A stretch of 39,015 bases of DNA from Candidatus Pacearchaeota archaeon (GTDB lineage: Archaea; Nanobdellota; Nanobdellia; Pacearchaeales; GW2011-AR1), in the NCBI GenBank assembly GCA_017609885.1, contig JAFCDB010000008.1:1-39015 (forward strand), written 5' to 3'. A program made the position numbers and the translations under genes. The notes below the pieces were generated by a model. That model did not search any database. It worked only from the letters and a program-made list of their open reading frames with translations, and was not told where the DNA came from. Shown in pieces: positions 3,639-30,465 of the stretch (position 1 is its first letter; every line of letters begins with the position of its first letter).

Positions 3639-6407
3639 TCAAGCAAACTTCAGTTCCTTAGGATATTCTTTGTTTAAAAATTCAGGATTTTTCTCAATAT
3701 CTTCAGGATAATTAATTTCCCAAATCTTTATCGGCCCTAAAAAATTCCCTTGAAACAAAATAAAATCATCAACTTCTGCTCCCTGCTCCCTTAAGTTTCC
3801 GATAACAAAATTTGGCTCTGAATGAACAAGCCTAAAATCTCCCTCCTCCCCAAATAAATATTTTCTCACCATAAATGAATTTACAGTTCTGCTGCTAAAA
3901 TAAAATCCTGCACCTCTCTCAACCCCTTTCAACTCCCCGCCAGAAGGATTCACAAAATCCATTAAAAAAATTCCTGACTCAACACCTGACTCAAAATCAT
4001 ATAATTCATCATCAGAGTAAACATATCTCATAGGCAAAGTTGTTTGAATTCCCTGCGAAACAACTACAACACTTGGCTGCAACATTTCTCCTGCAGTATT
4101 CAAATTAACAATCACACCTGCAATACCAGAATTTTCCTTGGCAAAAGAATATGTCGTCCCAGGAATTTCAGTACCATTTTCAATTGTCCCATTCTCCTCA
4201 TAAAAAATATCCTCGTCAAGTCCAATCCCAAGATTATAAACAAACATAATCCCATCTTGGGTCTCCTGAGTTGCCTGCTGATTCATTGTAAATGTCGGAA
4301 TATAACTAATCCTATCATAACTTGCATTACTCCCAATCTTGCTATATGCTCCGTATTTTCCAATCTCAGTTGAATCAATTAAATAATGCGTAGCATCATG
4401 AGTGTAAAGAAATTCCAAAGCAGTCGCATCATCTGGCGTTGTCAAAACATACCGCCCCATTAAATGATTCCAATATGGGATAGAATTTCCTCCATCTACA
4501 ATTGTTGCTCTCTCCCCAATACTCTGTAGCCAATATCCATAATCCCACCAGTGTCCAAAAACAGCATCCTCTGAAACATTCTCTCTAATCCAAGACATCG
4601 CCTTTTGCCATTGCCACTGATACTGCGAAGGATAAAATGTTTCTGCCTGTCCAAGAGAAGATTTATAAAAAAACAATCCACTATAGGCTCCTCCAATCAA
4701 AACAATACCTGCAACAATTAATACAAATATCTTCTTAAAATCATCTCCCTCTTTTCTTGAAAAACTCTTCAGCCCTTTAATTAAAACAAAAACAATAAAA
4801 TAAGCAGCAATCGCGCTTGTCGAAGGAACCAACATCATAATCAATCTCACAGCTCCCCGCGCAGAAACAATTCCCAAAACAAAAAATGAAAGTAAAAGTA
4901 TCAGTCCAAAACTAATTGTCTTCAATTTCTCCAATCTATTCTCTTTATACAAGTTAATATACTGCCAACCCAAAATCCCAAAAAACAAAATCACCCCTCC
5001 AAAATAAACAGTCAAACTCTGCCAATTTTCCCCATTTAAAATACTATTCGAAGCATACCTACTAAAAACAATTGTACTTATAAAAACCACATAGCTAAAA
5101 CTCAAAAAAAACTTTTCCTTAGTTCTCAATTTCCGAATCATATTATAAAATAACAAAACAGAGCCCACAAAAAACAAACTGAAAAAAATCGGAATCTGTC
5201 CAAAATAAGGCCCAAAACTTCCAGACCACTCTTTAAAAAACGGCTGTCGATTTTCTGCAACTGTTTGGATCAATCTGCTTGTTGCTGGTTTAACTAAATC
5301 AGTAAATGAAGTAGAAAACTTGCCAACAATAAAATCAGGCCCAAAGAAAACTAAAGAAACAATAATCAACAAAACCAAACCAATAACCGCAGAAATTAAT
5401 TGCAAAGGCAATTTAGAAAACATTTCAGACTGAAAATAATTTTTAATTTTCGTCTTAGAAATCGCAAAATAAACAAGAACAATAGCTAATACTACAAAAC
5501 AAGCACCAATATTTCTTGATTCAATTACTGTTTTCAAAGTAAATCTAGAAGAAAAAAATATCATAACACTCAAAGAAACAGCCAGCCAAATACAAAAAGC
5601 ATAAAATTTTTTCAAATCAACCTGCCCAATTAAAAATCCAATAAAAACTGTCAGCCCAATTGTAAGAAAAATATAAGCATATCCTCCCCAAATCAAAGCC
5701 ATACACCCAGTTGCAATACCTGACAAAATAGAAAATAAAATTCTTGACTTTCCTGTTTTAGAATCCCAAGCACAAATAAAAAAATAAAATGCAAGAAACA
5801 TAAAGAAAAAAGCAGCAGATTCTTTTTCAGGAATTCCTGCAATTGTCCTCGCAAGCAACGGAGGCAAAACCGTCAGAAAAAAACACGCAACAAGTGCAAT
5901 CAAATTCGGAATTTTCTTATCTCCAAAAGAATTATAGAAAATCTTTCTAACTAAAAAGAAAAACGCAACAACTGTAAGTGCAAACATCACAACAGGAAAA
6001 ATTATCGCAGCATAAGTCACACTCATCTCATTTGAAAAAACAGAAAGAAACTTGTAAAGCCAAACAATCATATAAGGCAATAATTTCGTCTCCCCAAGAG
6101 TATTATACCCTAAAGGAACATACCTCATATTATCAATTACAAAAAGAGAACCATGCTCAATAATATATTTCGCCCATCTCAAAAACAAAAACGGATCTAA
6201 GTCAGGCCCAAGTGTCCAAGTTCCTGTTGTAATATCCTTCAATCCATGCAAATTCCGCGTCCGAATATAAACAGCCAGCCCAACAATAGCCGCAAGAACA
6301 AGATAAAAAATCCACATCGCATTTTTCTTAAAGAAATTAAAAACATCTTGCTTTCTCTGTTCAATTAATTCCTTTGTATCAATTTCACTTCTTTGAAAAT
6401 CTTCCAT
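3639..6407 (-). CDS. aglB: AglB oligosaccharyltransferase (STT3 family)
   Basis: AglB transfers a lipid-linked glycan to Asn of secreted proteins on the outer face of the membrane. At 922 residues it is full length. The N-terminal half has about 13 membrane segments, beginning at MWIFYLVLAAIVGLAVYI (31-48). The first DxD metal-binding motif is D69-L70-D71 in GPDLDPFLFLRWA. The STT3 signature WWDYG is at 620-624, followed by a soluble C-terminal domain rich in beta strands. A TATA box at 6431-6440 fits a leaderless start at 6407. It is transcribed alone, away from the gene at 6819. The many secreted pilin-like proteins in this window are plausible acceptors (inference). Confidence 0.95.
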   Translation of the reverse strand: MEDFQRSEIDTKELIEQRKQDVFNFFKKNAMWIFYLVLAAIVGLAVYIRTRNLHGLKDITTGTWTLGPDLDPFLFLRWAKYIIEHGSLFVIDNMRYVPLGYNTLGETKLLPYMIVWLYKFLSVFSNEMSVTYAAIIFPVVMFALTVVAFFFLVRKIFYNSFGDKKIPNLIALVACFFLTVLPPLLARTIAGIPEKESAAFFFMFLAFYFFICAWDSKTGKSRILFSILSGIATGCMALIWGGYAYIFLTIGLTVFIGFLIGQVDLKKFYAFCIWLAVSLSVMIFFSSRFTLKTVIESRNIGACFVVLAIVLVYFAISKTKIKNYFQSEMFSKLPLQLISAVIGLVLLIIVSLVFFGPDFIVGKFSTSFTDLVKPATSRLIQTVAENRQPFFKEWSGSFGPYFGQIPIFFSLFFVGSVLLFYNMIRKLRTKEKFFLSFSYVVFISTIVFSRYASNSILNGENWQSLTVYFGGVILFFGILGWQYINLYKENRLEKLKTISFGLILLLSFFVLGIVSARGAVRLIMMLVPSTSAIAAYFIVFVLIKGLKSFSRKEGDDFKKIFVLIVAGIVLIGGAYSGLFFYKSSLGQAETFYPSQYQWQWQKAMSWIRENVSEDAVFGHWWDYGYWLQSIGERATIVDGGNSIPYWNHLMGRYVLTTPDDATALEFLYTHDATHYLIDSTEIGKYGAYSKIGSNASYDRISYIPTFTMNQQATQETQDGIMFVYNLGIGLDEDIFYEENGTIENGTEIPGTTYSFAKENSGIAGVIVNLNTAGEMLQPSVVVVSQGIQTTLPMRYVYSDDELYDFESGVESGIFLMDFVNPSGGELKGVERGAGFYFSSRTVNSFMVRKYLFGEEGDFRLVHSEPNFVIGNLREQGAEVDDFILFQGNFLGPIKIWEINYPEDIEKNPEFLNKEYPKELKFA

Positions 6408-9793: not shown

Positions 9794-10150
9794 ATGACAA
9801 AAGAAAAAAAACAAGAAAAAACCTCAGAAAGAACAGAAGCAGAAAACATAGAAAAAACAGTCGTAGATTTGGCAAAAAAAGGAAAATCTCCTTCTGAAAT
9901 AGGAATAATTCTAAAAGAAAAACACGGCGTAAAGAAAATAAAAGTCCTCGGAAAAAGCATAACAAAAATCTTAGAGAAAAATAAAATCTCACATGACAAT
10001 GATTTAGCAGTAATCAACAAAAAAATAGAAAACCTTCAGGCCCATTATGCAAAAAACAAGCAGGACAAACGCGCAAAAAGAGAAATTGTTCGGTTTATTG
10101 GGTTGAGGAGGAAGTTAGAGAAGTATGGGAAGAAGAAAAAGAATTCTTAA
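9794..10150 (+). CDS. rps15: Small-subunit ribosomal protein uS15
   Basis: This 118-residue protein matches archaeal uS15 (S15/S13e), which binds the central domain of 16S rRNA. LAKKGKSPSEIGIILKEKHGV (about 37-57), GKSITKILEKNKI and the basic helix with DKRAKREIVRFIGLRRKLEKYGKKK are hallmark segments. The first 25 residues are a charged leader. A TATA-like TTTTTAAACC (about 9765) lies upstream, just after the tRNA. In many archaea rps15 precedes a RecJ-like gene, as here, although a repeat-filled gap of 604 bp now separates them. Confidence 0.93.
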   Translation: MTKEKKQEKTSERTEAENIEKTVVDLAKKGKSPSEIGIILKEKHGVKKIKVLGKSITKILEKNKISHDNDLAVINKKIENLQAHYAKNKQDKRAKREIVRFIGLRRKLEKYGKKKKNS

Positions 10151-10187
10151 TTAGACATTTTTCAATTTAACAGAGCGGTTCAAGAAA

Positions 10188-10426
10188 GCACAGTTTTTTG
10201 ATTTGGCTTTGGTGAAATCATAGGATATATAACATTTTTCTCAATTTAAAATCTACATTGCGAGACAAATCACGTCGAGCAATACTGGGCGGGCGGGTAG
10301 GGAATTGAGAAAAATGTTCAAAAATTTAATGGTTTCACCAAAGCCTTTGATTTCAAATAAGACATTGCGAAACGCGAAGCGTTAAGCAATATCGCGGGCG
10401 GGTTGGGCGGGATAAAAAAACTGTGC
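10188..10426. mobile_element. Host palindromic element, interrupted by family A copy
   Basis: GCACAGTTTTTTGA (10188-10201) and TAAAAAAACTGTGC (10413-10426) are inverted arms matching at 13 of 14. The element has its own inner hairpin ATTGCGAAACG/CGTTAAGCAAT (10364-10390) and a canonical G-quadruplex motif GGGCGGGTTGGGCGGG (10396-10411). A direct repeat AAGAAA flanks it (10182-10187 and 10427-10432). A second complete element (10205-10345) lies within its left half. Confidence 0.75.
10205..10345. mobile_element. Family A palindromic element A1 (complete, 141 bp)
   Basis: Terminal inverted repeats are GGCTTTGGTGAAA and TTTCACCAAAGCC. A second pair of arms (AACATTTTTCTCAATT and AATTGAGAAAAATGTT) and an inner hairpin ATTGCGAGAC/GTCGAGCAAT lie inside. 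The G-quadruplex motif GGGCGGGCGGGTAGGG is at 10287-10302. TTTGATTT occurs exactly on both sides (10197-10204 and 10346-10353), an 8-bp target-site duplication. The left 100 bp are nearly identical to 16222-16321. Confidence 0.85.
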
Positions 10427-10508
10427 AAGAAAATAGCAGAATTTCCTAAGAATTTTTGCCAACCGTGGAAGTAAAAATCCCCGATGTAACTAAAAAATCA
10501 AACAAAAA

Positions 10509-10517
10509 TTTATAAAC
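10509..10517 (+). promoter_or_regulatory. Probable TATA box for recJ, distant
   Basis: TTTATAAAC is the best archaeal TATA match in the gap before recJ. If used, transcription would begin near 10540 and leave a leader of about 215 nt that contains the palindrome 10564-10719. A purine-rich AAGAGG lies 8 nt before the recJ ATG and could act as a ribosome-binding site. Confidence 0.4.
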
Positions 10518-10563
10518 CTAGTTGAATTTTCTTGGTAACAATGTAGCTCCAACAGCTAAAATA

Positions 10564-10719
10564 ATTTTGAAATTCATAAACTTTTAGGGGGTGAAACAAG
10601 GCAGGGCGAGTGATTTGACGAGTGAGTTTCAAAAGAGTGCAAAAAGGCGAGCGAGATTGTGAGCAGGAAAGGGATGGTATCAGCGAAGTTGAGTAAGGGG
10701 GAATAATGAATTTCAAAAT
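10564..10719. repeat. Palindromic element with family F core
   Basis: ATTTTGAAATTCAT (10564-10577) and ATGAATTTCAAAAT (10706-10719) are perfect 14-bp inverted arms. The centre (GCGAGTGATTTGACGAGTGAG ... GCGAGCGAGATTGTGAGC) matches, on this strand, the reverse complement of the family F core at 12470-12535. It lies between a TATA box and the recJ start. The other part of the 10427-10563 gap holds only the TATA box and a weak family D-like stretch near 10450-10480. Confidence 0.65.
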
Positions 10720-10754
10720 AAGAAGGTTGAAGATACAAAACAAAAGAGGCCAAA

Positions 10755-12071
10755 ATGTTAAACAGTATTAAAGAATTCACAAAAAAATTTCTGGAAAAAA
10801 CAGCTAACAAACAAATACAAATTGTAAGCCACAATGACACAGATGGAATAACATCTGCAGCAATCATAACAAAAACCCTGCAAAGATTAGGAAAAGATTT
10901 TTCTATAAAAATCGTTAAAGGACTTGATGAAAAAATAATTTCCTCCCTTCCACAAAACAAATCATTGCTATTCTTAGATCTTGCATCAAACAGCTTTAAT
11001 TATTTAGAAAAACTAAAAACAGAAATTTTCATTTTAGATCACCACGAAATAACTTCAGAAATTCCAAATAACATAGAAATAGTAAACCCTCACCTTTTTA
11101 ACGAAGAAGAAATATCAGGAGCAGGGCTGACATATCTTTTCGCAAAATCAATTAGCGAAGAAAATAAAGATTTAGCAGATTATGCAGTTATGGGAATGGT
11201 AGGAGATTTATTAGAAAAAAATCCAGGAAAAATCCTAAATGAAATAATAAATGATTCAAAAGTCGTAGTAAAAAAAGGCATCATTATGTATCCTGCAACA
11301 CGCCCAATAAACAAAGTCCTTGAATACAGCTCAGATATTTATATTCCTGGAGTTACAGGAAGTTTCATTGGAACATCAAATTTTTTAAGAGAACTTGGGA
11401 TAACAAAAAAAGGAAATCAATACAAAAGCATAATTGAACTAAGTGAAGAAGAAACTTCAAAACTTATCACAGCAATTTCATTGCAAAGAGCAGACAACGG
11501 CAAACAATCAGAACTTATTGGAAACATTTATCTTGTAAATTTTTTCAACAATCTCGAAGACATCAGACAAATAAGCGCAACAATAAACGCCTGTTCTCGT
11601 TCAGGAGAAAGCGGCACAGCAATTGCCTATTGTCTCCAGAACAAAAACGCAAAAGAACGAGTTGACAAAATCTACACAACACACAAACAAGCAATTGTAA
11701 AAGCCCTTAACTCAGTTTCAACTCTCAAAAAAATCGAAGACAAAAATTATCTAATCCTAAACGCAGAAGACAAAATAAAAGACACAATCATTGGAACAGT
11801 CGCAAGCATCATTTCAAATTCAAGAGAATACAAAGAAGGGAAAGCAATAATTGCAATGGCTTACAACGAAGACAAAATAAAAATTTCTGCACGGATGGTT
11901 GGAAAATCAAGGAAAAATATCAGGGAACTTTTAAATTCAGTTGTAGAAATTATCGGCGGAGAAGTTGGCGGGCATCATGCAGCAGCAGGAGCACTAATTG
12001 AAAAACAAAAAGAACAGGAATTCATTGATGAGTTGAAAAGAAAGTTGGAAGTTGAGTTGGTTAAGATTTAA
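10755..12071 (+). CDS. recJ: RecJ-like DHH phosphoesterase / GAN-type nuclease
   Basis: This 438-residue protein has both DHH-family domains. DHH domain: SHNDTDGIT (25-33, D28 and D30), LFLDLAS (D75) and ILDHHE (D95-H96-H97). DHHA1 domain: VGGHHAAAGA (404-413), the substrate-binding GGH motif. The family includes the archaeal GAN nuclease and Cdc45-like proteins, which act on single-stranded DNA at the replication fork with GINS. Length fits the 430-480 residue archaeal type. All metal-binding motifs appear intact, so it should be an active exonuclease rather than a degenerate Cdc45. The neighbourhood with rps15 is typical. Confidence 0.92.
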   Translation: MLNSIKEFTKKFLEKTANKQIQIVSHNDTDGITSAAIITKTLQRLGKDFSIKIVKGLDEKIISSLPQNKSLLFLDLASNSFNYLEKLKTEIFILDHHEITSEIPNNIEIVNPHLFNEEEISGAGLTYLFAKSISEENKDLADYAVMGMVGDLLEKNPGKILNEIINDSKVVVKKGIIMYPATRPINKVLEYSSDIYIPGVTGSFIGTSNFLRELGITKKGNQYKSIIELSEEETSKLITAISLQRADNGKQSELIGNIYLVNFFNNLEDIRQISATINACSRSGESGTAIAYCLQNKNAKERVDKIYTTHKQAIVKALNSVSTLKKIEDKNYLILNAEDKIKDTIIGTVASIISNSREYKEGKAIIAMAYNEDKIKISARMVGKSRKNIRELLNSVVEIIGGEVGGHHAAAGALIEKQKEQEFIDELKRKLEVELVKI

Positions 12072-12377
12072 TCAAAACCCACGCGTAAATAAATATAACC
12101 AAAGTAATGAGTACAAAACAAGAAAAATTATTGAAATAATTAAAGAAGAAATTGCCATCCACATCCCATCCAATCTATTCTTTTTTATTTTAACAATTGC
12201 TATAATTGAAGTTATTAAAGAAATTATTGCAACAACTGGAAAAATATAAAAAAGGAAATATTCAAAAAATACACCAACAACCTTAATACTAGGAAGACTA
12301 AGAAAAAACAATAACAAAAATAATAATAAATTAACAACAACCAATACTAAAGACGCAATAGCTAATTTATTTCTCAT
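12072..12377 (-). CDS. Small membrane protein, DUF4190-like
   Basis: The adopted ATG at 12377 gives 101 residues with three hydrophobic segments: LAIASLVLVVVNLLLFLLLFF, YFLFYIFPVVAIISLITSIIAIV and MAISSLIISIIFLVLYSLLWLYLF. The pattern of small helix, KIKKNRLDGMWMAISS loop and helix resembles the DUF4190 membrane domain. The frame stays open to 12443, but a minus-strand TATA box (TTTTTATATC, about 12398-12406) lies 25 nt before 12377, which supports the shorter leaderless form. It is convergent with recJ and abuts its stop. Confidence 0.7.
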   Translation of the reverse strand: MRNKLAIASLVLVVVNLLLFLLLFFLSLPSIKVVGVFFEYFLFYIFPVVAIISLITSIIAIVKIKKNRLDGMWMAISSLIISIIFLVLYSLLWLYLFTRGF

Positions 12378-12441
12378 ACCAAACAAAACAAACCACGATA
12401 TAAAAACCTTTCCACAAATCTGCAAATCATAATCGAATATC

Positions 12442-12556
12442 ACACATTAACAGTATTTTCTTGAATTTTTTCTCGCGATCTGACTTGCCTTTCTCTCCTT
12501 GCGAACCTTTTTCATCTCTCGTCAAATCGCTCGCGACCGCGGAAGCAAAAATTCAA
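12442..12556. repeat. Family D-type hairpin filled by family F insert
   Basis: TTGAATTTTT at 12461-12470 and CAAAAATTCAA at 12546-12556 are hairpin arms identical to those at 26890-26924, where only a 13-nt loop separates them. Here about 66-75 bp (TCTCGCGATCTGACTTGCC ... CAAATCGCTCGCGA) fill the loop. The insert resembles the one at 3429-3494 and, reversed, 19457-19514. Confidence 0.65.
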
Positions 12557-12613
12557 CTCCCCTTTCCAAAAATTTCACATCCAACAAAACATTTTTTTAA
12601 TATCAAATAAATT

Positions 12614-12703
12614 CGAAGAAATTTTCTCATTTAAAATAGGACAGCGCTAAACATCCTCGTTTAGCGCTGTCGGGTGGGTGGGCGGGAAAAAGAAAATTTC
12701 TTG
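12614..12703. repeat. Palindromic element with perfect hairpin and G4 motif
   Basis: The inner hairpin GACAGCGCTAAAC/GTTTAGCGCTGTC (12640-12652 and 12659-12671) is perfect over 13 bp. It is followed at once by the G-quadruplex motif GGGTGGGTGGGCGGG (12672-12686). Outer arms AGAAATTTTC (about 12617-12626) and GAAAATTTCT (12692-12701) close the element. The order matches family A. It lies about 100 bp before aif2A. Confidence 0.75.
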
Positions 12704-12807
12704 ATTTCTTGAAAATTTTCCACAAACAAAAAAACCGCGCAAGAAATTCCCCCCCTCCCAAATCTCCTCTCCCAAAATCTTAAAAACCCTCTCCCAATAA
12801 TAATTCT

Positions 12808-13506
12808 ATGAAATATGAAGAAGGAGACGTAATACTTTGCAAAGTAACAGACATAGCTAGAACTACAGTCTTCGTAGAAACTCTCAATGGAACAAAAGGC
12901 AGTATTGTCCTCAGTGAAATCGCTCCAGGAAGAATCAGAAATCTCCGAGAATATGTTGTCCCAAAAAAAGTAATATCCTGCAAAATACTCAACATAAAAG
13001 ACAACCATCTATTTCTCAGTTTAAGAAGAGTAAAAACAGATGAAAGAAGAGAACTAATGGACCAATATAAAAAAGAAAAAAGTTTTCAAGGAATATTAAA
13101 AAAAATCTGCGGAGAAAAACGCGCAAAAAACATCATAGAAAAAATAAAACAAAGCCAAACAATCACAGAATTTTTTGAAGACGCAAAAGAAAATCAAAAA
13201 CTTCTTGAAAAATATTTCACAAAAGAACAAATCCCTCAAATTAAAAAAATACTTGAAACAAAAAAAGAAAAGGAAAAACAAATCAAAAAACAATTCAAAC
13301 TTTCCTGTATTCAATCAGATGGAATAAAAAAACTCAAAGAAATTCTTTCGCCTTATGAAAACATTAAATATCTTGGTAATTCTAAATTTTCAATAAAAAT
13401 AAAATCAAGGGATTTGAAAAAAGCAAGTCACGAAATGAATAAAATCCTTGAAAAAATTGAAAAACAGGCAAAAAAAGGGAAATGTGATTTTGAAGTGAAA
13501 AAATAA
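12808..13506 (+). CDS. eif2a: Translation initiation factor aIF2 subunit alpha
   Basis: aIF2alpha is part of the trimeric factor that delivers initiator Met-tRNA to the small subunit. At 232 residues it is slightly shorter than most (about 260-270). The N-terminal S1 OB fold (5-80) shows GDVILCKVTDIARTTVFVET, GSIVLSEIAPGRIRNLREYV and KDNHLFLSLRRV. A helical middle domain and a C-terminal alpha/beta domain (ENIKYLGNSKFSIKIKSRD...) follow. A TATA-like TCTTAAAAACC (about 12778) lies upstream. nop10 follows after 18 nt, the conserved archaeal order, although rpl44e and rps27e, usually upstream, are absent here. Confidence 0.93.
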   Translation: MKYEEGDVILCKVTDIARTTVFVETLNGTKGSIVLSEIAPGRIRNLREYVVPKKVISCKILNIKDNHLFLSLRRVKTDERRELMDQYKKEKSFQGILKKICGEKRAKNIIEKIKQSQTITEFFEDAKENQKLLEKYFTKEQIPQIKKILETKKEKEKQIKKQFKLSCIQSDGIKKLKEILSPYENIKYLGNSKFSIKIKSRDLKKASHEMNKILEKIEKQAKKGKCDFEVKK

Positions 13507-13524
13507 AAAGGAAAAATTAGAAAA

Positions 13525-13749
13525 ATGAAACTCAAAAAATGTTTGAAATGTGCAACCTACACAATGAAAGAATTTTGTCCAAAATGCAAAACAAAAACTA
13601 AAGAAGCAGGAGAAAAATATAAGGAAAAATTTGTAAAAAACTTAGGATGGAGCCAAAATTCAGTATCTCCGACAGTTATAAATGATTTTGGAATTCACAA
13701 TTTTCTGGGGGGTGGAAAGGGCGGGTTTCCGACGAAGGAGGATTTATAG
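13525..13749 (+). CDS. nop10: Nop10-like H/ACA RNP protein, extended by a mobile element
   Basis: Nop10 is the zinc-binding subunit of archaeal H/ACA guide RNPs. The first 45 residues show C6-x2-C9 and C18-x2-C21 in MKLKKCLKCATYTMKEFCPKCKTKT, the archaeal Nop10 zinc ribbon. Position directly after eif2a supports the call. The classical HPPxFSPxDxYxxYR tail is replaced by a shorter basic tail (EKYKEKFVKN). The frame runs on for 29 residues through a family B element (13661-13795). Removing the element and one AAATT duplication restores AGC CAA AAT TAA, a stop after residue 45. So the ancestral protein was 45 residues, and the present C-terminus SVSPTVINDFGIHN... is element-derived. Confidence 0.75.
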   Translation: MKLKKCLKCATYTMKEFCPKCKTKTKEAGEKYKEKFVKNLGWSQNSVSPTVINDFGIHNFLGGGKGGFPTKEDL

Positions 13750-13795
13750 TGAGAATCTAGAATTCTAAAATCATTATGTGTCATCGGAGATACTG
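13661..13795. mobile_element. Family B MITE-like element B1 (135 bp)
   Basis: Terminal inverted repeats CAGTATCTCCG and CGGAGATACTG bound the element. AAATT is duplicated on both sides (13656-13660 and 13796-13800). Inner arms AATGATTTTGGAATTC and GAATTCTAAAATCATT pair with one mismatch. Between them are a G-rich tract GGGGGGTGGAAAGGGCGGG (13708-13726) and a small hairpin around TCCGACGAAGGA. It is about 97% identical to 16344-16477, which suggests recent movement. No protein is encoded. Confidence 0.9.
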
Positions 13796-13870
13796 AAATT
13801 AACGAAAATTATTTAAAGAAAGCATTCTCAAATACAATATTAATAAATTTTTAAAAAAATAAAATGGAAG

Positions 13871-14356
13871 ATGAAGAGCACACGAAGAAAAGTTTTACAA
13901 ACAATTGTAGCAGGAGTTCTTTTAGTTGGTCCTTTATCTTATTCAAATGATTCTGAACAATTTATTTTAAAAAACCCTTTGCTTAAACAAAATATTTTTA
14001 CATTGGACACAACAGGCCCTTACGAAAATCCAGGGGTTGTAGATTATAATGCAATCACTAGAGAAACTCCCCAAGGTAAAAAAATAGTGAAAGAGAAAAT
14101 TGAAACAAATAGTGGAAAATATGTGATATTAAATGCCAAAGGTTCAGATGTAGCTCAAAGATGGATAACCGAATACGCAAAGAAAAATAACCATGATGTT
14201 GTAATAAAAAGAGATATCTTAGAAGAAAGAGTAAAAAATGGAGAAACACTTTTTGAATCTGTCCCCTTAGAATATAGAGAACTAAAACCCAAAGAATTCC
14301 TCGATAAAATAGACATAACAAAAGAGGTCATTAAAGAAGGAAAGTCAAACAAATAA
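13871..14356 (+). CDS. Exported hypothetical protein with Tat-like signal
   Basis: I do not recognise the 161-residue protein. The N-terminus MKSTRRKVLQTIVAGVLLVGPLSYS has a twin Arg followed by a hydrophobic stretch, resembling a Tat signal (S/TRRxxL) although the following Lys is replaced by Gln; a Sec signal is the alternative. The mature part has a region near GKYVILNAKGSDVAQRWITEYAKKNNHDVVIKRD and a charged C-terminal half. The gene is T/G-rich on its coding strand, unlike its plus-strand neighbours. ATG 13871 overlaps an out-of-frame ATG at 13864. Confidence 0.65.
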   Translation: MKSTRRKVLQTIVAGVLLVGPLSYSNDSEQFILKNPLLKQNIFTLDTTGPYENPGVVDYNAITRETPQGKKIVKEKIETNSGKYVILNAKGSDVAQRWITEYAKKNNHDVVIKRDILEERVKNGETLFESVPLEYRELKPKEFLDKIDITKEVIKEGKSNK

Positions 14357-14385
14357 TTTAAATAACTCTCTTTCTTATAAATTAT

Positions 14386-14847
14386 ATGAAAAAAGAGAAA
14401 TTATTCCTCGCACTCTGTTACATTTCCTCACTTGTAATCGGAGCAATTGCAATAACAATTTTCATCGCGTCGTGGGCAATGTACCCTCCAGACAAAATCT
14501 CATTTGCAATAATCGCATTAATTTTCCTATTTATTGCCTCATTAACATATTTCTCTCTAAAAAACTTTAAAATAAAAAAAAGAAACATTCTATTTTCAAC
14601 TCTATCAATAAGCATCTTAATTTCTATTTTAGCTACAACAACAAAATCTCTTCTTATAAAATACATTGAAACTCAATCAAAAATGATTTCAAGCATCCAA
14701 GATCCAGGACTTGCAGAAACAGCAACACAAACTGTATCAAACTTGCTAACAATCTTCAACAACTCTCAAAACATAATTATCACAAGCGCAATCATAATAA
14801 TAACTTACAACATTCTACCAATAATTTTTTTAAGAAAATCAAAATAG
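14386..14847 (+). CDS. Four-helix hypothetical membrane protein
   Basis: The 153-residue protein has four hydrophobic segments: about 7-28, 38-55 (FAIIALIFLFIASLTYF), 66-90 and 120-145. Loops are short and basic on the predicted cytoplasmic side (KNFKIKKRN). No known family is evident. A TATA-like TTTCTTATAAATTATATG precedes the start directly. Its 3' end overlaps the convergent endoQ gene by 9 nt. Confidence 0.7.
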   Translation: MKKEKLFLALCYISSLVIGAIAITIFIASWAMYPPDKISFAIIALIFLFIASLTYFSLKNFKIKKRNILFSTLSISILISILATTTKSLLIKYIETQSKMISSIQDPGLAETATQTVSNLLTIFNNSQNIIITSAIIIITYNILPIIFLRKSK

Positions 14848-16179
14848 CGTCTTCTGCTCTTCAATAACTGCCTCCCCATACCTGCCATCAAAACCTGGTT
14901 TAACTTTTATCTTCCCCTCCCTATTCCTAATAATCAACCCAGTAAGTTTTTCATCAATCCCTTTATCAGCCAAATCTTCTTTAGTAACATTCAATAAAAT
15001 ATTAAATTCATTTCCAAATTTTTCAATCAAAGAATTATAAATTTTCCAATTTCCCTTTGCAGAAATTCCAATCCCTGTAAACAAAGAAATAATTTCATGT
15101 AGTGGCAAAATCTTATAAAATTTTTTCGCGTTTGGGGACTTCATCCCGAGAGAAGATGAGCGTGGTTCCATAGATTCCTCTATTCGGGAGGGAGGGAGGG
15201 GGATGGAGGTGGAACATAGAACCACGCCAGAAGAAAGATTGTTTTGGGATGAAGTCTCACCCTCAAATTCAAATCCTTCTTCTCTTGAAGAATCAGCCAA
15301 TTCATTAACTCGACTATCAACTCCAATTGTCAACTTCTCATTACAAACAGGACATTTCCCTTCTAACTCCTTTGTTTTTTCAGAAGAGCAGGAAAAATCA
15401 CAATTCCGATGCCCATCCCAGTGATACATTCCATAAGCAGGATCAACTTCAATAGTTCCAAGAATTTCATTTTTCCTTATCGCAGAAATAATTTTCGAAT
15501 AACTTAAATCCATTTTATCCAAATCAAAAATCGTCGCTTCCCTGCCAATTCTCCAAGGCCAAAAACTATGCAAATCTGAAAAAGATAAAATCGCAAAATC
15601 ATCTAATTCTTTAATTCTCCAATTCATTGGCGGGTCACTTGACAAACCAGTTTCAATTGCATGGATATTTTTTATCTGCTTCCCGAATGCTTCTTTTAAG
15701 GAATTAAATCCACTCTTTGAACCTAAAATACCGAACCAAGGTGTCCAAATATGCGCAGGAAAAACCTCAATCTCAAAAGAAATCTTCATAATTTCTTTAA
15801 CAAATTCCTCACATGAAATATTAAAAATTGGCCGCCCATCATAATCCCGCCTTCCTTTTGTATCCAAATAGGAATTTATCTTCTCAGCAATTTTAATTGA
15901 AGGAATAAGCAAACAAAGATGCACTCTCCTTCCCTTTCCCTGAGTATACATCAAACTAATCTCCCCAGAAATCACAAAAGGAAATCCGTCAAAATAATAA
16001 ATCCCCTCCTTCTCTTTTAATTTTTTAATTTCACTCAAATGTTTTTCGTGAGTAAAATCTCCTGTCCCAAGCAAACCAACCCCTTTAATCCGAGCATATT
16101 TCACAAGATTTTCAAAACTTAAACTTCTAGAAGTTGCCCGAGAATATTTTGAATGGATGTGTAAATCTGCAATTAACAT
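14839..16179 (-). CDS. endoQ: Endonuclease Q (PHP family) with in-frame palindromic insertion
   Basis: EndoQ nicks DNA 5' of deaminated bases and abasic sites. The 446-residue protein begins with the PHP motif DLHIHSKYSRATS (H7, H9). A C4-type zinc region spans about 255-285 (CDFSC...CPVCNEKL), followed by LTIGVDSRVNELAD. The C-terminal helix-hairpin-helix part and the end KVKPGFDGRYGEAVI are typical. Between ELAD and PNAKKFYKILPLHEII there are about 40 extra residues (about 308-348, SSQNNLSSGVV...SMEPRSSSLGMK). They are encoded by a family E palindrome (15137-15256) read on the strand opposite to that used in bud32. Domains on either side are intact, so the enzyme probably remains functional. 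Confidence 0.88.
   Translation of the reverse strand: MLIADLHIHSKYSRATSRSLSFENLVKYARIKGVGLLGTGDFTHEKHLSEIKKLKEKEGIYYFDGFPFVISGEISLMYTQGKGRRVHLCLLIPSIKIAEKINSYLDTKGRRDYDGRPIFNISCEEFVKEIMKISFEIEVFPAHIWTPWFGILGSKSGFNSLKEAFGKQIKNIHAIETGLSSDPPMNWRIKELDDFAILSFSDLHSFWPWRIGREATIFDLDKMDLSYSKIISAIRKNEILGTIEVDPAYGMYHWDGHRNCDFSCSSEKTKELEGKCPVCNEKLTIGVDSRVNELADSSREEGFEFEGETSSQNNLSSGVVLCSTSIPLPPSRIEESMEPRSSSLGMKSPNAKKFYKILPLHEIISLFTGIGISAKGNWKIYNSLIEKFGNEFNILLNVTKEDLADKGIDEKLTGLIIRNREGKIKVKPGFDGRYGEAVIEEQKTLF
15137..15256. mobile_element. Family E palindromic element inside endoQ
   Basis: Outer arms GACTTCATCCC (15137-15147) and GGGATGAAGTC (15246-15256) are perfect. Inner arms GCGTGGTTC (15160-15168) and GAACCACGC (15219-15227) are perfect. 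The loop holds a canonical G-quadruplex motif GGGAGGGAGGGAGGGGG (15186-15202) and GATGGAGGTGG. Its motif order matches the bud32 copy in the same window orientation. Because endoQ lies on the minus strand, the C-rich strand is translated here (PLPPS). Confidence 0.85.
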
Positions 16180-16221
16180 AAAATTAAATAATCTAAAGAG
16201 TATAAAAAGATTGTTAAATTA

Positions 16222-16343
16222 GGCTTTGGTGAAATCATAGGATATATAACATTTTTCTCAATTTAAAATCTACATTGCGAGACAAATCACGTCGAGCAAT
16301 GCTGGGCGGGCGGGTAGGGAATTGAGAAAAATGTTTAAATTAA
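16222..16343. mobile_element. Family A element A2, right end lost
   Basis: The left TIR GGCTTTGGTGAAATCAT, inner arms, hairpin ATTGCGAGAC/GTCGAGCAAT and G-quadruplex motif (16304-16319) match A1, with one substitution across the first 100 bp or so. The expected right TIR is absent; a B element begins at 16344 and unrelated sequence follows it. It lies upstream of endoQ, outside its probable promoter. Confidence 0.8.
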
Positions 16344-16477
16344 CAGTATCTCCGGCAGTTATAAATGATTTTGGAATTCACAATTTTTGGGGGGTGGAAA
16401 GGGCGGATTTCCGACGAAGGAGGATTTATAGTGAGAATCTAGAATTCTAAAATCATTATGTGTCATCGGAGATACTG
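16344..16477. mobile_element. Family B element B2 (134 bp)
   Basis: TIRs CAGTATCTCCG and CGGAGATACTG with ATTAA duplicated on both sides (16339-16343 and 16478-16482). It differs from B1 by about four substitutions or indels. The left duplication lies in the tail of A2. The right duplication contains the stop codon (TTA on this strand) of the 29-residue gene at 16479-16568. Confidence 0.9.
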
Positions 16478-16478
16478 A

Positions 16479-16568
16479 TTAACTAGCAGTCATATAAACT
16501 AAAATCAAAATGACCAAAAAAAGTAAAGCATAAGGCCAAATTTCAGAGATAAATTTTTTAAGTTTCAT
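16479..16568 (-). CDS. 29-residue single-span membrane protein
   Basis: ATG 16568 opens MKLKKFISEIWPYALLFLVILILVYMTAS, a basic N-terminus followed by one membrane helix. A TATA-like ATTATATTA (about 16582-16590) lies upstream on the minus strand. The stop codon falls within the right target duplication of element B2, so the insertion left the reading frame intact. It could be a subunit-like micropeptide; no family is recognised. Confidence 0.5.
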   Translation of the reverse strand: MKLKKFISEIWPYALLFLVILILVYMTAS

Positions 16569-16666
16569 TTAACTAACCACCGATTTAATATAATAAAAAA
16601 TAATCCCTGAGCACTTATATACATTTAGGTATAAAAAAATAATTCTAAAAAACCAACTTCCTTAAA

Positions 16667-16762
16667 TTAAGTTATCAATCCAACCAACGCAATTAAAACA
16701 CCTAAAGAAGTAGAAAAAGCAATCATACTCGTCGCCATCAAAGTTCCTTTTGCAATATTCAT
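16667..16762 (-). CDS. 31-residue small membrane protein downstream of radA
   Basis: The frame MNIAKGTLMATSMIAFSTSL followed by GVLIALVGLIT starts 1 nt after the radA stop, which suggests co-translation from the radA message. It is largely one hydrophobic segment with small residues. No family is recognised, and a link to RadA function is not implied by sequence. Confidence 0.45.
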   Translation of the reverse strand: MNIAKGTLMATSMIAFSTSLGVLIALVGLIT

Positions 16763-16763
16763 A

Positions 16764-17780
16764 TCAATCCTTTAGCACAACATCCTTCAACCCATCTTTT
16801 TCAACCATAAAAACAGTTTCAGAATCAGGCAAATTTGGTGAGTCAATCAACTTCGCAACTCGGCTATCTTTTCTTCCTCTCCGAAGATAAATCCTATAAG
16901 TAGAAGCGTGAGCCACAATATTCCCGCCAATTGCCGTCGTAGGATCTCCAAACATCATCGCAGGATTTGACATTACCTGATTTGTAACAAGAACTGCAAT
17001 ATTTCTCTGCTCTGCAAGTTTCATCAACTCATGCAAATATCGATTCAACCTTTGCTGCCTGTCTGCCAACTGCCCTCTCCCAGAATACTCTGCTCTAAAA
17101 TGAGCTGTCAACGAATCAACAATCAGCAATTTAATCTTCTCTCCATTTTTAATCATCTCATTAATTTTCTCAATCAGCAAAATCTGATGGTCGCTGTTAA
17201 AAGCACGTGCAACAAAAATATTTTTCAAAACTTTTTCAGGATTCGCTCCAATACCCTCGGCAAATTGCTTTATCCTATCAGGCCTGAAAGTCCCTTCTGT
17301 ATCAATATAAACAGCTTTGCCATTAGCTCCTCCGCTCTCCTTTGGCAACTGAACACCAACAGCAAGCGAAAGAGCTAACTGAGTTTTACCACTTCCAAAA
17401 GCACCAAAAACTTCTGTAATTGACTTACTTTCAACCCCCTTTCCCCCAAGCAAATTATCCAGATTCTTCGAACCTGTAGTAATATAATTAATATCCTTTC
17501 TCTTTTTCTCAAACTCCGCAGCATCCACAAATCCCAAATCAAGCATATTCCGCGCTGCCTGAATCGCCTTCCTTGCAACACTCTCCCCAATCCCAGACAA
17601 CTCAGACAAAGCAGGAGGAGTCAAAGTTGCAACCCCCATTAAATCATAAATTCCTACAGTTTCAAGTTTCGCAATCGACGTCGGCCCAATCCCAGGAATA
17701 TCATTCAACCCCTTTTCCTCTTCTTCAACTTTCTCATTTTTTTTCTTAGAATCTTTTCTCTCAATTTTCTTCTCAACCAT
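16764..17780 (-). CDS. radA: RadA recombinase
   Basis: RadA is the archaeal Rad51/RecA-type recombinase. The adopted start ATG 17780 (338 residues, MVEKKIERK) is 22-29 nt from the minus-strand TATA box at 17802-17809; an in-frame ATG at 17795 lies too close to it. Features: acidic/basic N-terminal tail, helix-hairpin-helix domain (about 24-80, GLNDIPGIGPTSIAKL), Walker A GAFGSGKT (126-133), YIDTEGTFRPDR, Walker B LLIVDSL, and L2 region VTNQVMSNPAMMFGDPTTAIGGNIVAH. The C-terminal LIDSPNLPDSETVFMV is typical. Length and motifs are complete. A 31-residue membrane protein follows immediately. Confidence 0.97.
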   Translation of the reverse strand: MVEKKIERKDSKKKNEKVEEEEKGLNDIPGIGPTSIAKLETVGIYDLMGVATLTPPALSELSGIGESVARKAIQAARNMLDLGFVDAAEFEKKRKDINYITTGSKNLDNLLGGKGVESKSITEVFGAFGSGKTQLALSLAVGVQLPKESGGANGKAVYIDTEGTFRPDRIKQFAEGIGANPEKVLKNIFVARAFNSDHQILLIEKINEMIKNGEKIKLLIVDSLTAHFRAEYSGRGQLADRQQRLNRYLHELMKLAEQRNIAVLVTNQVMSNPAMMFGDPTTAIGGNIVAHASTYRIYLRRGRKDSRVAKLIDSPNLPDSETVFMVEKDGLKDVVLKD

Positions 17781-19254: not shown

Positions 19255-19456
19255 CATCTTACCTCTAATCTTACAAAAAAACCAAGACACTTTTTAAGTA
19301 TTATGTTAGTAGAGTTTCTTATTTTATCAAATCAACTATTCGCTATTCCTTTTTTATTAAAATCAATTGGACGAAGTCTAACATGGGTTGGTGAGAAATT
19401 TCGCGAGTGGTAAGTCAAAAGGGGAAAACAAAGCGAGCGAGATTGGGAATTAGGGG

Positions 19457-19514
19457 GCGAATGATTTGACGAGTGGGAGTCAAAAGGGTGAAGCAAGGTA
19501 AGTCAGATCGCGAG
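19457..19514. repeat. Family F repeat, reverse orientation
   Basis: GCGAATGATTTGACGAGTG ... GCAAGGTAAGTCAGATCGCGAG is the reverse complement of the insert core at 12470-12535. It lies in the gap between rpa and ef1b, where G-rich degenerate repeat sequence extends from about 19380. The remainder of 19298-19587 shows only the ef1b TATA box (ACTTAAAAACC, about 19558). Confidence 0.55.
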
Positions 19515-19587
19515 TTAAAGAAACGATATAAAAATCTTGGAATGAACCAACGAAAAAACTTAAAAACCTATTTCAACAACTTTTAAC

Positions 19588-29420: not shown

Positions 29421-29465
29421 ATTATATAACTATATATAAGAAAGTATTTAAATTTTTCTGTAGAA

Positions 29466-29605
29466 GACTTTGGTGAAATCCTATGAAATTTGACATTTTT
29501 ATCTAATTTAATATCTCATTGCGAGACAGCACGTCGAGCAATGTTGGGAGGGCGGGCAGGGATTAGATAAAAATGTCTGAAAAATTAGGGGGGTTCACTA
29601 AAACT
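29466..29605. mobile_element. Family A palindromic element A3 (140 bp)
   Basis: Imperfect ends GACTTTGGTGAA / TTCACTAAAACT, second arms GACATTTTTATCTAAT and ATTAGATAAAAATGTC, inner hairpin ATTGCGAGAC/GTCGAGCAAT, and G-quadruplex motif GGGAGGGCGGGCAGGG (29546-29561). Near-identical 8-bp flanks CTGTAGAA (29458-29465) and CTATAGAA (29606-29613) look like a decayed target duplication. It lies between the small basic gene and the antitoxin gene of module copy 1. Confidence 0.8.
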
Positions 29606-30046: not shown

Positions 30047-30321
30047 AGTTTAATAGCAGAACGATGTTTAATTTTTGCATAAAACTCAGGACTCCAAATA
30101 TACACAACATATCCTTCAACATCATAGGCAATTTTATTTATACTTTCAAGATATTCCATGATAATCTGAAATGTCTGCCACATCACCTTCTTAGGCAAAT
30201 TATGAAACAACTCAGTTTTCTTAAACTCGCCGCTATTTTCATTAATAAAATTCTCCACCATCAAAACCGTCTGAAGTGTCGGGGACCTTGCTGTTTGATT
30301 TTGCTGAATTGTTTCTACCAT
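30043..30321 (-). CDS. Antitoxin partner of the RelE-like toxin (copy 2)
   Basis: The 92-residue protein has the same winged-helix-like layout as the copy at 29154: SPTLQTVLMVENFINENSG, LFHNLPKKVMWQTFQIIMEYLES, then DVEGYVVYIWSPEF as the wing. It overlaps the toxin by 4 nt. The start lies only about 15 bp from the inner end of a family A element (30336-30465), so the promoter must lie in or be displaced by that element. Autoregulation is likely for the family. Confidence 0.78.
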   Translation of the reverse strand: MVETIQQNQTARSPTLQTVLMVENFINENSGEFKKTELFHNLPKKVMWQTFQIIMEYLESINKIAYDVEGYVVYIWSPEFYAKIKHRSAIKL

Positions 30322-30335
30322 TTTAACAATAATCC

Positions 30336-30465
30336 TTTAGTGAAATCCTTGATAATTGGGCATTTTTCTCTTTAAAAAATCAATACTGTGAGACGTTCCA
30401 CATCGAACAATATTGGGCTGGTGGGCAGGAATAGAGAAAAATGCCTAAACCTTTTATTTCACCAA
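30336..30465. mobile_element. Family A palindromic element A4, degenerate
   Basis: Ends TTTAGTGAAAT (30336-30346) and ATTTCACCAA (30456-30465). Second arms GGCATTTTTCTCT and AGAGAAAAATGCC have sequences different from A1 and A3 but still pair. The G-tract (30415-30429, GGGCTGGTGGGCAGG) has decayed from a canonical motif. It lies immediately upstream of the antitoxin gene of module copy 2. Confidence 0.7.

Follow-up and report, generated by a model that had tools for sequence, protein, structure and literature searches.

The nop10 gene of a Pacearchaeota-like DPANN archaeon has almost certainly received a 135-bp MITE of the ISH3 type (IS4-like DDE) within an AAATT that overlaps its stop codon, and the predicted protein is therefore longer by 29 residues (74 instead of 45 aa). 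The window that we analysed, 39,015 nucleotides, is one contig (C26) of a 750-kb draft genome in 37 contigs. In it, nop10 is read as a frame of 74 aa at 13525-13749 on the plus strand, directly after the aIF2-alpha gene (12808-13506, plus strand; PF07541, 25.3 bits with a cut-off of 22.8). This position, together with the Pfam and NCBIfam models, supports the assignment of the original 45 codons (13525-13659, plus strand) to nop10; the scores, both below their cut-offs, are 27.1 bits for the 74-aa frame with PF04135 (cut-off 27.2) and 31.1 bits with the NCBIfam Nop10 model (cut-off 68). All four zinc-ribbon cysteines are invariant among 19 aligned Nop10 sequences. Reading of the frame and a check of the sequence place the 29-codon tail and its TAG stop at 13660-13749 (plus strand), and the tail would yield the peptides SVSPTVINDFGIHNFLGGGK. 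Only its first base (13660) comes from the target duplication; the remaining 89, down to the end of the TAG, are MITE. The original prediction of an element lying over the nop10 stop codon and adding 29 residues was thus borne out.

The element itself occupies 13661-13795, as had been predicted; it is delimited by its inverted ends, by the duplication and by its BLAST copies. Its terminal inverted repeats, CAGTATCTCCGA at 13661-13672 (plus strand) and at 13784-13795 (minus strand), are perfect over 12 bp, one more than the 11 bp first proposed. Comparison of the flanks located the AAATT duplication, also foreseen, at 13656-13660 and 13796-13800 (both plus strand). When the flanks are rejoined over a single AAATT, AAT-TAA is restored and a 45-aa frame ending in GWSQN is obtained, so the claim that excision gives a stop right after residue 45 is exact. 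We call the element a MITE as it is short, has inverted ends, is flanked by a duplication, occurs in several copies and is non-autonomous, all its frames being too short to encode a transposase. The whole element is predicted to be able to fold as a long hairpin; as RNA with both duplications, it gave -50.2 kcal/mol with a z score of -6.3, and none of 200 shuffled sequences was equally stable. A search for known structured RNAs gave no Rfam family within positions 10000-17000 of the window.

A BLAST search with the MITE gave 17 matches in its own genome, of which many are partial and some are pieces of one copy, and at an E value of 1e-5 gave no match in 54 other related genomes. Because of this distribution, the MITE is not a chance sequence; it is multicopy. 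We inspected ten places in the genome. Both ends were recognisable in five of them: the two copies of the window and single copies on contigs C21, C18 and C28. Four of these five are flanked by duplications (AAATT, ATTAA, ACTTT and, on C28, the 6-bp AAACTA); a flanking duplication was looked for around the C18 copy and none was found. A copy on C17 was left out of this count, as one end is degenerate and the border of its 6-bp repeat was set by eye. The second copy in the window lies at 16344-16477, with ATTAA at 16339-16343 and 16478-16482, and differs from the nop10 copy at 3 positions over 135 aligned columns. The insertion had been called recent. This holds relative to the other copies, given the three differences and the intact ends and duplication, and not as an absolute date. 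The second copy directly adjoins a truncated copy of another repeat family of up to about 145 bp, which is found in the window at 10194-10344, 16211-16339, 29443-29587 and 30310-30456; the copy at 10204-10344 has the ends GGCTTTGGTGAAATC and GGTTTCACCAAAGCC. Three other stretches of the window (10540-10740, 12427-12610 and 19415-19520) resemble the interior of the MITE family or longer relatives of it, with ends that are decayed or absent.

The ends of the MITE link it with complete transposons. The 11-bp end CAGTATCTCCG occurs exactly 24 times in the genome, against no occurrence of the reversed pattern, and is present in 21 of 55 genomes, this one included. In other Pacearchaeota and Woesearchaeota, such ends flank ISH3-like transposases. 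In one genome (G028, locus L098), CAGTATCTCCG begins a 1382-bp IS with the duplication GGGCA, which encodes a 349-aa DDE transposase (PF01609, 35.4 bits). A DUF2080 frame (66.7 bits) lies directly before the transposase, at 1578-1736 of this locus, within the ISH3-like element, and frames like it can also be seen within the ends of other IS. The ends of the MITE also delimit an element of 198 bp, with a 6-bp duplication, in another genome (G030, locus L091). The L098 transposase scored 94.9 bits (E 4.5e-27) with the ISH3 model, and the others that we scored gave 89.4, 57.9, 51.3 and, for a fragment, 38.9 bits; all are below the equivalog cut-off of 225 bits. We speak of ISH3-like transposases because ISH3 is the best family by far, yet the scores stay below this cut-off.

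With an alignment of five such proteins, 26 ISH3-like transposase loci were found in named genomes, chiefly of Pacearchaeota, Woesearchaeota and Nanoarchaeota, with one locus in Aenigmatarchaeota, one in Methanosarcinales and two in Thermoplasmatales. Both ends, within one mismatch, are present at 14 loci. Three of these 14 elements run off their contig; among the 11 that allowed a test, six have an exact duplication of at least 5 bp (7 bp in one case), and five have no exact 5-bp duplication. The traits given for ISH3 in the family description of De Palmenaer 2008 (PMC2266710) are ends with CRGT, a length of 1225-1500 bp, direct repeats of 4-5 bp and the motif Y-(2)-R-(3)-E-(3)-(R). The ends here are CAGT, the MITE has a direct repeat of 5 bp, and 11 of the 14 two-ended elements, which span 1113-1516 bp, fall inside the length range. 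The motif is present at 22 loci, with K at the last position in three; of the four loci that do not have it, three are truncated, and in the fourth the frame is interrupted by eight stops. Low model score apart, the features of these IS agree with that family description. The MITE thus belongs to an ISH3-type transposon family, a link that is new here and ties a MITE family of DPANN archaea to ISH3-like transposons.

An ISH3-type transposase gene was not found in the assembled genome. At ten contig ends (of C3, C4, C6, C8, C12, C20, C29, C30, C32 and C33), the assembly breaks off 109-114 bp into a single kind of IS, whose end is CAGTATCTCCGCA; five of these breaks belong to each end of the IS. 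The flanks of C3 and C32, of C4 and C20, and of C6 and C8 share an exact 5-bp duplication, which suggests that these contigs join; the ends of C12 and C30 could not be paired in this way with those of C29 and C33. Displaced controls gave at least three duplication-matched pairs in 2 of 10,000 cases, a figure that is not a formal probability as the controls overlap. Because three pairs match, there are at least three near-identical copies of the IS; their number is probably five or higher, and all of them are missing from the assembly, which would explain why the transposase is absent too. Although the assembly does not show this putative partner IS, contig ends betray its presence, and its 5-bp duplications indicate which contigs join. 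Searches with the IS end in public genome and viral contigs found nothing, and translation of its 113-bp second end gave no convincing transposase match (best E value, 0.28). The IS and the MITE have only their ends in common, with the same terminal 11 bp. As a direct parent of the MITE, the five-copy IS was rejected on the bases further in: beyond the 11 bp, the nop10 copy agrees with it at 3 and 7 of 24 positions on the left and at 8 and 9 of 24 on the right. The inner ends of the nop10 copy fit best to two other loci (L143 and L145; 14 and 15 of 24). This link is weak for the nop10 copy, because shuffled sequences reached these values in 263 and 63 of 2000 trials. It is strong for one end of the C21 copy, with 18 of 24 positions, a value reached by 1 of 2000 shuffles.

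A comparison of Nop10 lengths in close relatives had been proposed as a check, and a close relative with an unrelated long tail would have spoken against the insertion. A search with the 45-aa core matched 52 of 92 genomes, this one included. We fetched 30 loci (our own and 29 others; 22 genomes with weaker matches were left out) and dropped one (L043), whose frame reads as a translation-factor GTPase, so that 28 related Nop10s were compared. In the same genus, five of the six other genomes encode a Nop10 of 44, 44, 44, 44 and 41 aa, none of them with a long tail, and the sixth (G006) gave no nop10 match with the 45-aa core. Judging from these sequences, the short form is the ancestral state. 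No empty allele from the same species was found. Following the A[GH]xK[FY] motif, 27 of the 28 proteins have 6-18 residues; the exception, from another genus (G022; locus L034, 1387-1605, minus strand), has 41. Its tail contains a different dispersed repeat, which is unrelated to the MITE and has five matches in that genome including itself, so it is apparently an independent extension. As regards other H/ACA proteins, Gar1 (PF04410) gave no match in any of the seven genomes of the genus and a match in 3 of 14 controls, although a diverged Gar1 could escape this model. A Cbf5 DKCLD match, barely above the cut-off, is found on contig C14 at 5921-5992.

The long tail could in principle be native to Nop10, with the repeat having evolved around it, and the 41-residue tail of G022 shows that one member of the family does have such a length. 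However, that tail comes from another repeat, every congener in which nop10 was found has the short form, and the tail studied here falls entirely within a repeat whose flanks are duplicated; we regard a native tail as vanishingly improbable. Another alternative is an assembly artefact that put a copy of the repeat into nop10 by mistake; in its favour, the MITE is repeated, the draft is fragmented and related repeats do break contig ends. Yet a wrong join would not produce a duplication of 5 bp without any mismatch. The near-identical copy, at a distance of 2.7 kb, is flanked by another duplication, and the two copies can be told apart by their three differences. A misjoin is hence extremely unlikely, and the insertion of a MITE is the reading that we follow. 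An ISH3-type transposase acting in trans would have moved the MITE into the AAATT, and the insertion would have created the 5-bp duplication. With the MITE in place, the T of the former TAA would lead on into the C-A of the element, and ribosomes would read 29 codons on, up to the TAG inside the element.

What this means for the protein is less certain. A change of the C-terminus had been claimed, and this stands for the predicted protein only. The Nop10 C-terminal helix binds Cbf5. The Nop10-family profile matches solved archaeal chains (at 2e-11) only over the zinc ribbon, at profile positions 3-29, and because of this the added residues fall beyond the part of Nop10 that can be aligned with a solved structure. 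The likely consequence is a neutral, tolerated C-terminal tail, probably disordered, with no selected function. It is very unlikely that the tail or the 3' hairpin has been co-opted and is kept by selection for an effect on Nop10 function, on mRNA stability or on termination. The very stable predicted hairpin, the 29 open codons and the finding that the 45-aa core matches no second nop10 in this genome would fit such a role. On the other hand, the tail stops inside the MITE, the MITE was found in one genome only, and the open frame is unremarkable, as the C21 copy has no stop anywhere in this frame either, although it adjoins no recognised gene in that frame. We also consider it unlikely, though somewhat less so, that the tail is translated and alters a stripped-down H/ACA machinery (with a short Nop10 and no Pfam-recognised Gar1) and that the nop10 3' end is a repeated landing place in the Nop10 family. 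The idea of a landing place comes from G022, as another dispersed repeat is independently present there. If such an altered machinery exists, it would be a natural test of how much the Nop10 C-terminus can vary. The MITE hairpin could affect the decay of nop10 mRNA, by analogy with Coxiella enhC.

Searches of titles and abstracts in the open-access literature found no work on DPANN MITEs or DPANN ISH3 transposons, which is weak evidence of absence. In bacteria, C-terminal extensions made by MITEs are already known; what is new here is the archaeal host and the ISH3-type ends. According to the account of QMITE2 in PMC5896051, this element lies at the 3' end of enhC in Coxiella burnetii Dugway and supplies a 33-residue C-terminal extension (29 residues here), the stop precedes the QMITE2 position in enhC of another Coxiella strain, and an effect on mRNA decay was proposed. 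Whereas QMITE2 is described there from a bacterium and with variable duplications of 7-11 nt, the nop10 MITE has ISH3-type ends and a 5-bp duplication and sits in a housekeeping RNP gene of an archaeon. The RU-1/ERIC element in the ECA3499 amidase of Erwinia carotovora, as presented in PMC2759123, also apparently removed a stop and lengthened a protein, but it is of a different family and its host is a bacterium. The Rickettsia palindromic elements, according to the review PMC10969869, are palindromes of about 150 bp that are likewise read in frame; they occur in many genes and often inside them, whereas nop10 has a single element, which is fused to its 3' end. With the ISH3 family as portrayed in PMC2266710, the elements studied here share CAGT ends, duplications of about 5 bp, the transposase motif and archaeal hosts, but the MITE has no transposase and the related transposases score below the NCBIfam equivalog cut-off. 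The Sulfolobus MITEs SM3A and SMN1 are described in PMC3718332 as archaeal, non-autonomous and moved by resident IS; their partners are ISC1058 and ISC1733, and their host lies outside the DPANN archaea. Next to these systems, nop10 offers a base-exact case of a mobile element rewriting the stop codon of an archaeal housekeeping gene.
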